A DNA stretch of 61,391 nt from Actinomycetota bacterium. Lineage in GTDB: Bacteria; Actinomycetota; Geothermincolia; Geothermincolales; RBG-13-55-18. Made by a program: the position numbers and the translations under genes. The DNA is taken from contig QZKE01000096.1 of NCBI GenBank assembly GCA_003598015.1, positions 1 through 61,391 of the forward strand. Direction: 5' to 3'. Positions 31,501 to 36,967 of the stretch are shown here, piece after piece. Below the pieces are notes generated by a model. It searched no databases, was not told the DNA's origin, and was given only the letters and a program-made list of their open reading frames with translations. How positions within the stretch are numbered: position 1 is the stretch's first letter; each line of letters starts with the position of its first letter.

Positions 31501-32316
31501 TCAATCGAATTTGACGTGGGCCCTGATGCGCTGGTAGCTCTTCTCCAGAAATCCGGGGTCGTCGATGCTGATGCGGATCGCCTGGTTGGGGCAGGCGGTA
31601 GCACAGCGTCCGCAGGCGCGGCAGTATTCGCCTATGACCGCCTTTCCCCCCACCACCTGGATGGCGTGGATGAAACACTGATCCACGCAAGTCCCGCAGC
31701 CCGTGCAATCTTTCATCACCTCGATGGAGATACCGTCCAGGCGAGGCAGCATCGGCTCGAGGATATCCCTGTGCAGGTAACGGGTGTTGCGTGTAACACA
31801 GCAGCATTCGCAGCAGAAACAGGCGGTAAGCAACCGGCCGCCATCCCTGATTCCGGTAAAGGAGTTGTCTATCCTTGCCTTCCCCACGAGCGGCACCAGC
31901 CCCGCTTCGATCGCCCGGCGGGCATGTTCCTTGGCCTCCGCCACGCTCACCTCGTGGCTCAACGAGGGTGGCGAGGCGAGGGCGTCGTCGCCCATGAGCA
32001 GGCAGCCGATCTCTTCCCGCCCGTCCCGGCAATCGAAAGCCCGTCTGCAGGTACAGAAGTCGTAGATGACGCGGTGGGAGGCCTCCTCGATCAACCGGTT
32101 CAGCAGGGATAGGGGCATCGGCACGTCCTCCGGCAACGCGATGTCCGTGTTGATGGGGAGCCAGCGCAGATCGGTCTTTGTTGCGCTGGTCCAGGGATGG
32201 TGACGCAGCAGCATGCGCATCTTACCGATCCTCTTGACAATCGCTTTCAACATGTTCATTCCCAGCCGCAACAAGCGGGCGTTGCGGCTCTCGAGTATCT
32301 TTCGCGGCAGCGACAT
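31501..32316 (-). CDS. 4Fe-4S dicluster ferredoxin-like protein
   Basis: Soluble iron-sulfur protein of 271 residues. The C-terminal ferredoxin domain has CTGCGTCVDQC and CRACGRCATACP, enough for two [4Fe-4S] clusters. Two further cysteine groups lie upstream (CTCRRAFDC about residue 88, and CFCCECCC about residue 168), so it may bind extra clusters or metal. The N-terminal 80 residues are basic with no recognised domain. It probably passes electrons to or from a partner not seen here. Its promoter overlaps a perfect palindrome. The ChlI-ChlD fusion lies upstream on the same strand. Confidence 0.85.
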   Translation of the reverse strand: MSLPRKILESRNARLLRLGMNMLKAIVKRIGKMRMLLRHHPWTSATKTDLRWLPINTDIALPEDVPMPLSLLNRLIEEASHRVIYDFCTCRRAFDCRDGREEIGCLLMGDDALASPPSLSHEVSVAEAKEHARRAIEAGLVPLVGKARIDNSFTGIRDGGRLLTACFCCECCCVTRNTRYLHRDILEPMLPRLDGISIEVMKDCTGCGTCVDQCFIHAIQVVGGKAVIGEYCRACGRCATACPNQAIRISIDDPGFLEKSYQRIRAHVKFD

Positions 32317-32496: not shown

Positions 32497-34503
32497 CTAA
32501 AGGTGTTTTTCCAGCCTGTCTATTATCTCCTGTGGCTGCAATTTGGAGAGGTGATAATAGTCCGCTCCCATAGCGTCGGCGATACGGCGGGCATGGGAGG
32601 GTACCGCCCGGCCTGCTTTTATGCGGGATATATCGATGGAGGTATCGAATACGACGCTGGAGAGATGTTGTTCGCGGATCTTGTCGGCCAGCTCCAGGCT
32701 TTCGCGCAGAGGGTTCTGTGAGGCGTATCCGACGTTTCCATGCCCGTCGGTTATCAAAACCAGGAGGGGCGACATATCGGGATCTCGCCGCAGTTCACGC
32801 TTGGCAACCAGCAGCGCCATGGCCAGACCGTGGTTCAGCGGGGTCGCGCCTCCGGTAGCCAGGTCCTTTATGCGCAGGTTGGCCAGCTGCACGCTGGAGG
32901 TCGGGTTGAGGACCAACTGTGCGTCTTCATCGCGAAAGGATATCAAGCCGACACGGTCCCGTTTCTGGTAGGCATCGACGAGGAGCAGGTTGACCACCGT
33001 TTTCGTCGCTTCGATGCGCTCGTTGCAACCCATAGACGCGCTCGCGTCCACGATAAAGAGGATAAGATTCCCTACCTTACGCCGCCGTATGGTCGTGCGC
33101 AGGTCCTCTTTCTGGATGCTGAACGGCTTAGCGGTGCCCGCGGTTCTGTTTGCTGCGGCGCGCAGAGTGGCATCAACGGCCAGGTTGCCCGCTCCTACGG
33201 TTTCGTCCGGGCGAGGAAGGCGATGCCCGACCTTGCGCCCGCTGTTCGTCTCCGTTGTCGTGCTGTTCCTCTTGCCGGCTCCCATGCGTACCGCCTTCGC
33301 CGCCAGTCCCTGCAGGGACGGTATCTCGAACTCCTTGCTCGCGGCTTCCGCCCGTCTCTCCTGCATCTTTGCCGCAGGCGGGCTCGCTGCTTCATCGCTG
33401 GCTGCGGTCGTTGTCTCCCCCGCCGCGAACGACGTAGCCAGATTGTCCTGGAAGGGCAGATCGATCAGTTTTCCCTTGCGCTCGATGATGCGGTCCAGCC
33501 TTTCCAGGTCCTTGATCTGGTTGTCGAAGGGCGTCTTTCTCAGCCGGTGCAGGAGCGCCATCTCCGCGGCATCGCGTATATGGTCCTCCCCGACATCCGG
33601 CTTGCCCTCCAGCGCGGCGAGTGCCCGGGCGGCCTGGCAGGTCGCGATGTCCGCACGATGCCCGCATACTCCTAGTTCCACGGCGATGCGGGCGACCAAC
33701 TCCAGGGTGGCATCGTCCACCGTGACATGGGGCAGAAGTCTGCGCGCCTCGAGGATGTCACGGCGCAACCCCTGCTGCTCGGGTTCGAACGAGGAACGGA
33801 AGAGTTGGGGATCATCGAGGAAACGCTGGCGGCGGCGGACAACCTCCATACGATCCGCCGTCTCCCGTTCGCCCCTGATCTCTACACACAGCCCGAAGCG
33901 GTCTTCCAGTTGGGGCCGGAGCTCTCCCTCTTCGGGGTTCATGGTCCCTATCATGATGAATGACGCGGGGTGCGAATACGATACCCCTTCATGCTCCACG
34001 ATGTTCACTCCCATGGCAGCCGCGTCGAGCAGGATGTCTACGATGTGATCGTCCAGGAGGTTGACCTCGTCTACGTAGAGAAGCGAGCGGTTGGCCTCGG
34101 CGAGTATGCCCGTCTCGAAGTCCTTGACTCCCTCTTTGACCGCGCGTTCCAGGTCCAGGGTTCCTACTACGCGGTCCTCGCTGGCGTTCAGGGGAAGGGT
34201 GACGAAACGCATGGGGCGCGTATAGACGGGAAGAGGCTCCCCCTCTCCCCAGCGCCGCATGCATGAGGCGCACATCTCGTCTTCGCTGTGGGGATTGCAT
34301 GAGAAGGGGCAATCCGCCACTACCTCGATCTCGGGGAGCAGGTCGGCAAGGGCACGCGCGGCGGTGGATTTCCCCGTGCCCCTCTCCCCCCTGATAAGCA
34401 GCCCACCGATGCGGGGATCGACTGCATTGATCAGCAGGGCGCGCTTCATCTTCTCCTGCCCGACCATGGCCGAGAAGGGATAGAGGATGAAATCCTGCTT
34501 CAT
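32497..34503 (-). CDS. Magnesium/cobalto-chelatase ChlI-ChlD fusion
   Basis: Protein of 668 residues combining the AAA+ and VWA subunits of a metal chelatase. The AAA+ part (about 8-340) has Walker A GERGTGKS (39-46), Walker B 'LLYVDEVNLL' and sensor 'GTMNPEEGELRPQLEDRF'. A cysteine cluster (CPFSCNPHSEDEMCASC) lies after the first beta strand, as in some BchI proteins. A Ser/Lys/Thr-rich linker leads to the VWA domain (about 480-668) with the MIDAS motif DASAS. With a large ChlH/CobN subunit, absent here, it would insert Mg or Co into a tetrapyrrole. A cobalamin role is more likely than chlorophyll in this context, but this is inference. Confidence 0.85.
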   Translation of the reverse strand: MKQDFILYPFSAMVGQEKMKRALLINAVDPRIGGLLIRGERGTGKSTAARALADLLPEIEVVADCPFSCNPHSEDEMCASCMRRWGEGEPLPVYTRPMRFVTLPLNASEDRVVGTLDLERAVKEGVKDFETGILAEANRSLLYVDEVNLLDDHIVDILLDAAAMGVNIVEHEGVSYSHPASFIMIGTMNPEEGELRPQLEDRFGLCVEIRGERETADRMEVVRRRQRFLDDPQLFRSSFEPEQQGLRRDILEARRLLPHVTVDDATLELVARIAVELGVCGHRADIATCQAARALAALEGKPDVGEDHIRDAAEMALLHRLRKTPFDNQIKDLERLDRIIERKGKLIDLPFQDNLATSFAAGETTTAASDEAASPPAAKMQERRAEAASKEFEIPSLQGLAAKAVRMGAGKRNSTTTETNSGRKVGHRLPRPDETVGAGNLAVDATLRAAANRTAGTAKPFSIQKEDLRTTIRRRKVGNLILFIVDASASMGCNERIEATKTVVNLLLVDAYQKRDRVGLISFRDEDAQLVLNPTSSVQLANLRIKDLATGGATPLNHGLAMALLVAKRELRRDPDMSPLLVLITDGHGNVGYASQNPLRESLELADKIREQHLSSVVFDTSIDISRIKAGRAVPSHARRIADAMGADYYHLSKLQPQEIIDRLEKHL

Positions 34504-34862: not shown

Positions 34863-35207
34863 ATGGAGATTGCGGTGTCGAGAGTCGGTGACCTGGGAGA
34901 AATCGCTATCGTCAAGGTCTCGGGGGTGGTTGATTCCGAAACGGTGGAGCTTTTCGGGGAGACCGTCGAAAGGGTTTTCAAAGAGGATTGCTACAACATC
35001 GTCCTGGATATAGACGGGCTTACCTATATCAACACGGCGGGTTTGAGCATCATCGCCGACGCCTACAAAAAATCGACCCAGAACAAGGGAGCGCTCAAGA
35101 TCCTCAAGGCGGGAGATGCCATCAAGGAGCTCCTGGATGTGGTGCGGTTCACAAAGATTATCGACATCTACGAGGACGAGGGGGAAGTCATCGCGAGCTT
35201 CGGGTGA
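34863..35207 (+). CDS. STAS-domain anti-sigma factor antagonist
   Basis: SpoIIAA/RsbV-like protein of 114 residues. The core motif 'LDIDGLTYINTAGLSII' (about 48-64) places Thr58 where the phosphorylated Ser/Thr normally lies, and Asn57 where the family usually has Asp. In partner switching the unphosphorylated form binds an anti-sigma kinase and frees the sigma factor. A GGAAGGAGG site precedes the ATG. The next gene begins eight bases after the stop and encodes a phosphatase with a kinase-like domain, so the two form one switch. Confidence 0.9.
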   Translation: MEIAVSRVGDLGEIAIVKVSGVVDSETVELFGETVERVFKEDCYNIVLDIDGLTYINTAGLSIIADAYKKSTQNKGALKILKAGDAIKELLDVVRFTKIIDIYEDEGEVIASFG

Positions 35208-35215
35208 GAGTAGAG

Positions 35216-36967
35216 ATGATCGAGAGTATCGACAAGGACACACAAAACACTCCGGAAGAGACCGTCTCCAACGGGGATTTCTACCGCATCGGGCGCCTGC
35301 TGGCCTCAACGCTCAGCCTGACAACGCGCCTGGACCGTGTCGTGGAACAGGCGATGGAGCTGCTGGAGGCGGACCGTGGTAGTATCATGCTCCTGGACGA
35401 GGATGCCCAGGAGCTCGTGGTCAAGGCCTCCCGGGGCTTGAGTTCGTCACGCGAGTTCCGGGTCCCCGTGGGGCAGGGGATCGCCGGCTGGGTGGCGGAA
35501 CGCGGGGAATCCCTGGTCCTGCAGGATGTGGTCTCGGACCGCCGCTTCACCGGTACCGACGAAAGCATCAAGAGTGCGCTGGCGGTACCTCTGCGCGTGG
35601 AGGGGAAAGTCATCGGCGTGCTCAATATTTCCAATGCTGCGCGCAAACGCCGTTTCGACCATCACGACCTCGAGCATCTGAGCGCCTTTGCGGACATGGC
35701 CGCGGTGGCCATAGAGAACGCGCGGCTCTACGAAGCGCTCAGCAAAGACCAGGAGCAGGTGAACAAGGAACTCCGCATGGCCAGCCGCATCCAACACTCT
35801 ATCATATCAACCCACGTACCTTGTGCCTCCATGCGTATGGTATCGAGGTTGATGCCGGCGTCGGCAGTGGGGGGCGATTTCTTCAGCATCATACCCCTGG
35901 ACCGCGACTCTCAGTTCTGCTTCTACTGCTCGCCCGGAGTGCAGGACCGCTGCCAGAAACTGCGCACCCAGTTCTGCCCCAACAAGTTCGGCCTGATGAT
36001 CGGAGATGTCGCCAACAAGGGTATGCCCGCGGCGTTGATCATGTCCGTCCTTACCACCATTCTCTACGAGGTGGGACGTCACCATATCTCCCCCCGGACC
36101 ATCCTTAACGAGGCCAATGCCGCGTTCCGCCGCTTTTTCAACGAATCCCAGTACGGCTTCGCCACGCTTTTCTACGCCTTCTATGACAACAACGACAATA
36201 CCCTTACCTATGCCAAGGCGGGACACGAACCGCCGCTCCTGCTGCGGGGGAAAAGCGGTGAGTATGAGTATCTGGAGGGGGAAGGGTTCCCCGTGGGGCT
36301 CATGGAGGATGGAGGATACCAGGAGAAAACTATCGAGCTCGAGCGGGAGGACCGCATCCTGCTCTACACCGACGGCCTCACGGGAGCCCTTAACGTGAGG
36401 GGGGAGATCCTGGGGAGGAAGAGGCTGATCGAAGTGGTGAAATCACTGGCCAAGGCGGATATCGAGGCCTTCCTTGACGCGCTGGCCGACGAGATAATGC
36501 TCTTCTCCGGGGATGCACCGCAACCTGACGATATCGCCGTCATGGTCATGGAGCTTGAAGACCTCTATGACCTCACCATGACCGTGGGGACCGATGTGCG
36601 GCAGATACGCTACGTGATCAATAGCGTTCTGGAGACTTTGCAGGGTTTCGCAGGCCTGAAAGACCCCATTACACTGCGTCTTTGCCTGGAGGAGCTTCTG
36701 CATAACGCCATGGAACACGGCAACCGTTGCGATGTCTCCAAGAAAGTTTATATCACCGTCAAGGCAGAGCCCAGGCGGGCGACGATCAGGGTGCGTGACG
36801 AAGGTGAGGGCTTCGATATCGGCTGTATGCTGGAGCCTGGCGGTGGGGAGAAGGAGGTCCTCTCGGAGCGGGGCCGGGGGCTCCTCATAGTGCGCCATTA
36901 TGCCGATGAGCTGCGTTTTAACCGGGAGGGGAACGAGGCTACGCTGGTTTTTACAGCGGACGGGTAG
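35216..36967 (+). CDS. GAF-SpoIIE phosphatase-HATPase partner-switch protein
   Basis: Cytoplasmic protein of 583 residues with three signalling domains: GAF (about 22-172), a PP2C/SpoIIE phosphatase (about 195-450; metal residues Asp221, Asp264, Asp386 and Asp438/439) and an RsbW-like HATPase (about 455-583, 'CLEELLHNAMEHG', 'DEGEGFD'). It therefore holds both the phosphatase and the kinase of an anti-sigma switch, with GAF as input, and the STAS partner is the gene before. Between phosphatase strands is an insert with Cys235-x2-Cys238-x7-Cys246-x7-Cys254, absent from ordinary members. The start is ATG 35216; an overlapping GTG at 35204 adds four residues. A frame extending to 34988 overlaps the STAS gene and is rejected. 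Confidence 0.92.
   Translation: MIESIDKDTQNTPEETVSNGDFYRIGRLLASTLSLTTRLDRVVEQAMELLEADRGSIMLLDEDAQELVVKASRGLSSSREFRVPVGQGIAGWVAERGESLVLQDVVSDRRFTGTDESIKSALAVPLRVEGKVIGVLNISNAARKRRFDHHDLEHLSAFADMAAVAIENARLYEALSKDQEQVNKELRMASRIQHSIISTHVPCASMRMVSRLMPASAVGGDFFSIIPLDRDSQFCFYCSPGVQDRCQKLRTQFCPNKFGLMIGDVANKGMPAALIMSVLTTILYEVGRHHISPRTILNEANAAFRRFFNESQYGFATLFYAFYDNNDNTLTYAKAGHEPPLLLRGKSGEYEYLEGEGFPVGLMEDGGYQEKTIELEREDRILLYTDGLTGALNVRGEILGRKRLIEVVKSLAKADIEAFLDALADEIMLFSGDAPQPDDIAVMVMELEDLYDLTMTVGTDVRQIRYVINSVLETLQGFAGLKDPITLRLCLEELLHNAMEHGNRCDVSKKVYITVKAEPRRATIRVRDEGEGFDIGCMLEPGGGEKEVLSERGRGLLIVRHYADELRFNREGNEATLVFTADG

Follow-up and report, generated by a model that had tools for sequence, protein, structure and literature searches.

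A conserved four-cysteine insert, likely a metal or iron-sulfur site, inside the catalytic domain of a SpoIIE-type phosphatase fusion of Geothermincolales

Inputs to switch phosphatases act via N-terminal domains, a coiled-coil linker and switch helices, as set out in passages of PMC12143880 and PMC8080068. The locus described here raises the question of whether such an enzyme may also carry an input within its catalytic domain. The window (the whole stretch of 61,391 nucleotides that was analysed) encodes a 583-residue fusion of a GAF domain, a SpoIIE phosphatase and a HATPase domain (forward strand, 35216..36967, ATG start at 35216; open reading frame and Pfam), in which four cysteines lie between the predicted catalytic metal ligands Asp221 and Asp264. 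An earlier note on this DNA had proposed that these cysteines bind zinc or an iron-sulfur cluster and make the phosphatase redox- or metal-responsive.

All features of the gene are on the forward strand. The GAF domain (residues 35-166, 35318..35713; PF01590, E 1.5e-24), the only sensor-type domain found besides the insert, is linked to the phosphatase by a long helix predicted in the AlphaFold2 model (residues 149-196, 35660..35803). The phosphatase core gives a significant SpoIIE-type PPM match (PF07228, E 1.3e-47; residues 256-447, 35981..36556), and the acidic ligand motifs GGD, GDV, TDG and PDD are all present. In the alignment of the window protein with 82 orthologues, Asp264 of GDV (36005..36007) is found in 83 of 83 rows and Asp221 of GGD (35876..35878) in 82, with Gly in one; D386 is invariant and D438 and D439 nearly so. 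The sole orthologue with Gly in place of the GGD Asp, P0027 (GGGFF), may reflect a sequencing error or an inactive copy. Behind GDV, the secondary structure of the model gives helices at residues 269-287 and 293-307 (36020..36136), a predicted switch element that, from this order, we infer to correspond to the SpoIIE/RsbU switch helices as described in parts of PMC8080068 and PMC12143880.

The C-terminal domain (residues 460-578, 36593..36949) matches HATPase_c_2 (PF13581, E 3e-19) and has the N-box Asn and DxGxG motif of RsbW/SpoIIAB-type kinases, and its ATP-site residues E493, N497, D528, G530 and G532 show no variation in any row that reaches them. It falls outside SpoIIAB proper (TIGR01925, 29.6 against a cut-off of 135 bits; the spIIAB model gives E 5.5e-7, below cut-off). 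The domain is thus predicted to be an anti-sigma kinase acting on a STAS protein, and a single chain would likely hold both opposing enzymes, kinase and phosphatase. The earlier note had counted GAF, HATPase and insert as three inputs to one switch; the domains are there by Pfam, but the count of inputs does not hold, because a predicted RsbW/SpoIIAB-type kinase is an output. One orthologue of 542 residues, P0082, has the four-Cys insert and no HATPase in its Pfam list, and is either a natural kinase-less phosphatase or a broken gene.

By homologue alignment the insert spans residues 229-256 (35900..35983) and reads C235-x2-C238-x7-C246-x7-C254-Pro; in the model it forms the tip of a predicted hairpin of strands 221-229 and 253-265. 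The codons of Cys235 (35918..35920), Cys238 (35927..35929), Cys246 (35951..35953) and Cys254 (35975..35977, followed by the invariant Pro255) agree with the residue numbers of the earlier note for a start at 35216, and its span of 35921-35980 begins just past the first of these codons. Asp221 and Asp264 are 43 residues apart, compared with about 18 in insert-free homologues such as P0087 and P0097, so that the insert amounts to about 25 residues, and the short loop that had been claimed for other switch phosphatases is borne out in the relatives examined.

Conservation of the four cysteines is complete. The homologue search scored 7994 candidates and found 1199 proteins, of which the best 120 were compared: 82 of 82 orthologues (P0001-P0082, 45-92% identity) have all four at the same spacings, and the remaining 38, five of which match by GAF only, have none, with no intermediate number. 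One of the latter, P0101, carries a separate short insert that contains no Cys. With this conservation, and with the absence of any change at the four Cys columns on the tree described below, the motif withstands the sequence part of the refutation that the earlier note had set for its own claim. Across the 83 rows, the insert cysteines are never exchanged for His, Asp or Ser, and F236, Q243, P255, K257 and F258 are likewise invariant; the cysteines elsewhere in the protein tell less: C203 is kept in 77 of 83 rows, C505 in 57, C537 in one, and C490, in the HATPase domain, in 81 of 81. Even the most distant orthologue, P0081, with 37% identity to the window protein across the 38-residue insert stretch, keeps the four Cys and the Pro. 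Codons have meanwhile interchanged: TGT is used at the four positions in 6, 5, 2 and 5 of 17 unique genomes (L001-L017; counts taken over these from a table of 31 rows including repeats) and TGC otherwise, so the residues persisted despite codon change. A profile of distant orthologues found no Cys-replaced variant among the 120 listed of 801 matches, and at least two Cys between GGD and GDV were found in none of the 74 phosphatase-aligned proteins among 80 listed non-orthologues (P0083-P0162; the other six match by GAF only, and the flag on P0139 stems from a segment running past the motif). Chance cysteines, considered as an explanation, are ruled out by conservation in the alignment and on the tree.

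Relationships among 83 orthologues and 12 relatives were estimated by a quick maximum-likelihood method from an alignment of 95 rows with the insert columns left out. The resulting tree places the 83 insert-bearing proteins on one side of a single branch with support of 100; the tree program warned of long branches (P0083, P0081 and P0119 being the longest) and of long branches meeting, including P0081 with outgroup rows. Presence of the insert requires one change on this tree, as low a number being reached in 0 of 500 shuffles, and the insert thus maps to one origin. Each Cys column needs 0 changes, whereas the 26 remaining columns of residues 229-258 require 219, on average 8.4 and at most 30 per column; five of these 26 also need 0. 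Of 18 genomes belonging to the order Geothermincolales, a presumably anaerobic lineage, whole-genome searches found an insert-bearing protein in 17, the sole genome without one (G008) being 62% complete. When 396 genomes from across the phylum were searched, the 17 that match the insert profile were all Geothermincolales, against 0 of the 378 others; the phosphatase-domain profile gave 17 full-length matches, and its other listed matches begin at position 76-86, no earlier than the point where the insert ends. The GTDB collection was scanned with peptide patterns of this phosphatase family, by which an unrelated Cys insert in a distant SpoIIE protein might be missed. This yielded 50 loci, of which 13 have the insert, 36 have a short loop (with a stop within it in L068) and one (L075) starts behind that position. 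The 13 are Actinomycetota, Actinomycetes, actinobacterium, Candidatus Solincola or Candidatus Geothermincola records; they are largely the same genomes as the set from the order and not independent additions, and Solincola is placed in Geothermincolales by NCBI. A scan of viral contigs confirmed no relative. Because of the invariance of the cysteines, their 0 changes on the tree, the single origin and the order-wide presence, the insert is, judged by its sequences, a fixed, selected and order-specific element of one family. We also considered a mobile four-Cys module and rejected it: a 38-residue profile run on 39 related genomes finds only this protein (17 matches) at E <= 1e-3, and the further matches listed up to E 1 have E-values of 0.005 or worse and cover 11-24 positions.

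The likely substrate lies next to the gene. A STAS protein of the anti-sigma factor antagonist type (34863..35207, forward strand; PF01740, E 1.9e-15; TIGR00377 over cut-off) is encoded directly upstream in the window, the phosphatase gene starting eight bases past its stop, and all 17 orthologous loci have a STAS gene as the immediate upstream neighbour on the same strand, at distances of up to about 0.3 kb. Classical STAS antagonists have D-S-x-G at the phosphorylation site. The window protein reads Y-I-N-T-A-G-L, with Thr at the usual Ser position, and the Thr is kept in all 17 loci (N-T-A-G in 16, N-T-S-G in L017); from family knowledge we take this position to be the site of phosphorylation, which here would be the Thr. 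Further upstream, a chelatase-type AAA/VWA-like open reading frame, recognized by eye (32497-34503, reverse strand), has its start adjoining the STAS gene in 15 of 17 loci, and beyond it, about 3 kb away, lies a Cys-rich frame (31501-32316, reverse strand) with ferredoxin-like motifs (CTGCGTC, CRACGRCATACP).

At 89.5% completeness, the genome encodes two SpoIIE domains (contigs C18 and C23) and six STAS domains, all above cut-off, together with a single SigBFG sigma factor that also passes its cut-off and lies on contig C74 (L083). Near this sigma factor are a canonical STAS gene (EFMDSTGLG, with D-S-T-G) and, by eye, an anti-sigma-like frame that is not among the HATPase_c_2 matches of the genome. 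At C20:40964-41706 (L121, L130), on a contig without a SpoIIE domain, the strongest HATPase_c_2 match of the genome lies just behind a STAS domain, and the two likely form a second partner-switch pair. The second SpoIIE phosphatase of the genome (L082, open reading frame 1-2082) has no insert; C-S-R-D-D-C-P in its PAS-like region, seen by eye, is a possible Cys motif.

What the four cysteines bind was approached through structure models and database matches. Confidence for the loop in the full-length AlphaFold2 model is middling (block means of 66, 69 and 82), and a domain-only model built from 17 sequences was worse, with loop confidence under 50. The insert profile gave no match to PDB sequences at E <= 10, and fold searches returned PP2C, GAF and Rv1364c matches, none informative about the insert. 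In Pfam nothing exceeded the cut-off, the best matches being weak zinc ribbons (E 0.058-0.26; PF12773 and PF13248 at 12.4, 11.3 and 13.3 bits against cut-offs of 27.3 and 27), which span at most residues 2-22 of 38. If these lean to anything, it would be zinc; the two C-x2-C knuckles of a zinc ribbon are absent, a single C-x2-C being present in 83 of 83 rows. A Pro after the last Cys together with a single C-x2-C resembles ferredoxin-type ligands more than two-knuckle zinc ribbons, and by these weak criteria an iron-sulfur cluster would be slightly favoured over zinc. A Cys4 metal or iron-sulfur site is the most economical reading of the motif, and the insert likely holds one or the other. In open-access titles and the opening parts of abstracts, no Cys insert, zinc or iron-sulfur cluster in a SpoIIE/RsbU phosphatase was found.

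We tentatively propose, as a reading that falls somewhat short of an even chance, that the insert is one Cys4 metal centre, probably iron-sulfur, whose presence or redox state sets dephosphorylation of the STAS protein by the predicted phosphatase. The C-x2-C turn of Cys235 and Cys238, together with Cys246 and Cys254, would ligate the metal. In SpoIIE and RsbU, as described in parts of PMC8080068 and PMC12143880, recruitment of the metal and activity are governed by a pair of switch helices, which are set by linker and dimer contacts. In the model, Cys254 lies on a predicted strand that reaches Asp264 and leads into helices 269-287 and 293-307, and for this reason a change at the centre may shift the predicted switch helices or the catalytic metal site. 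Since Cys254 sits ten residues from Asp264 along the strand, the hairpin tip probably lies a long way from the active site, and the length of this strand argues against direct contact between the two; a Cys4 centre at the tip might instead stiffen or shift strand and switch, or shape the dimer. From their families, the fused HATPase is predicted to add a phosphate to the Thr in the STAS protein encoded upstream and the phosphatase to remove it; in its unphosphorylated form this STAS protein would free a sigma factor or other target. A more specific idea, that the PPM catalytic domain houses an iron-sulfur cluster which senses redox state or iron from its place between the catalytic metal-ligand motifs, is possible, at well under an even chance.

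The same cysteines might bind one zinc ion that merely pins the long hairpin and senses nothing, which we regard as a serious if rather doubtful possibility. Four invariant Cys in an otherwise mostly variable insert are what a small zinc-pinned loop would be expected to show, and the weak Pfam matches are zinc ribbons; however, these matches reach at most residues 2-22 of 38, there is neither a second C-x2-C knuckle nor a Gly after the first, and the relatives have a short Cys-less turn, so that a staple would be needed only because of the insert itself. The absence of a metal altogether, with the Cys pairing up on oxidation as a thiol-disulfide switch, would also account for four invariant Cys in a loop, but two would suffice for it, and four at fixed spacing would fit a metal centre better; we consider it very improbable.

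The insert might also be there for specificity and not for sensing: stabilised by metal, it would offer a surface for docking or dimerisation by which the enzyme chooses its partner, be it the STAS protein, the fused kinase or the second phosphatase. Two SpoIIE and six STAS domains in one genome would create a need for such specificity, and each matching genome has a single match, next to this STAS gene, with no other protein at E <= 1e-3 in the 39 related genomes. Several residues between the cysteines, however, are highly variable, with as many as 30 changes in a column, which would not be expected of a fixed partner surface, although Phe236, Gln243, Lys257 and Phe258 are invariant. Moreover, the substrate docks on three loops in SpoIIE/RsbU, by the account given in part of PMC11418112; these lie elsewhere in the domain, and the Cys insert loop is not one of them, a point that weighs against the sensing proposal as well. 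We consider an interaction element unlikely.

Among known systems, the SpoIIE/RsbU/RsbP-type PPM (PP2C) phosphatases share the PF07228 domain and acidic metal-ligand motifs with the window protein and resemble it also in the predicted long helix leading from a sensor domain and in the adjacent STAS gene; the relatives examined differ in having a short turn instead of about 25 residues with four Cys, and none of the listed non-orthologues has a Cys insert. The best-scoring of these among the matches listed with profile A5 (P0121-P0126, one of them named Candidatus Riflebacteria; 408-423 bits) share GAF, SpoIIE and HATPase by Pfam content but have an extra FHA domain and a short loop without insert. 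In Rv1364c of Mycobacterium tuberculosis, phosphatase and kinase share one chain, as here; to our knowledge it has no four-Cys insert. Its order is PAS-phosphatase-kinase-STAS in one chain according to parts of PMC12143880, whereas the window protein has GAF in place of PAS and a separate upstream STAS gene, and so stands outside that single-chain arrangement. RsbZ of C. difficile likewise passes GAF input via a predicted coiled-coil linker to the phosphatase but has two tandem GAF domains rather than one, and the passages on it in PMC12143880 mention no fused kinase.

The insert is, as far as its sequence can tell, a real variant of a well-known switch enzyme, without a name in the libraries searched. 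NreB, WhiB and FNR are Cys-ligated iron-sulfur sensors that, as here, have four Cys in a regulatory protein, with a Cys spacing and fold different from those of the insert, and we know of no such sensor that is part of a PPM phosphatase. The system offers a compact and testable case, with one family, one motif and one neighbouring candidate substrate, and with insert-free relatives as natural controls. If the proposal is true, the enzyme would receive, besides the signal of its N-terminal sensor, a second input from a Cys4 centre within the catalytic domain, and partner switching would depend directly on redox or metal state. Were the iron-sulfur reading also true, a presumably anaerobic lineage would control a partner switch within the enzyme itself, in addition to control via its N-terminal sensor.
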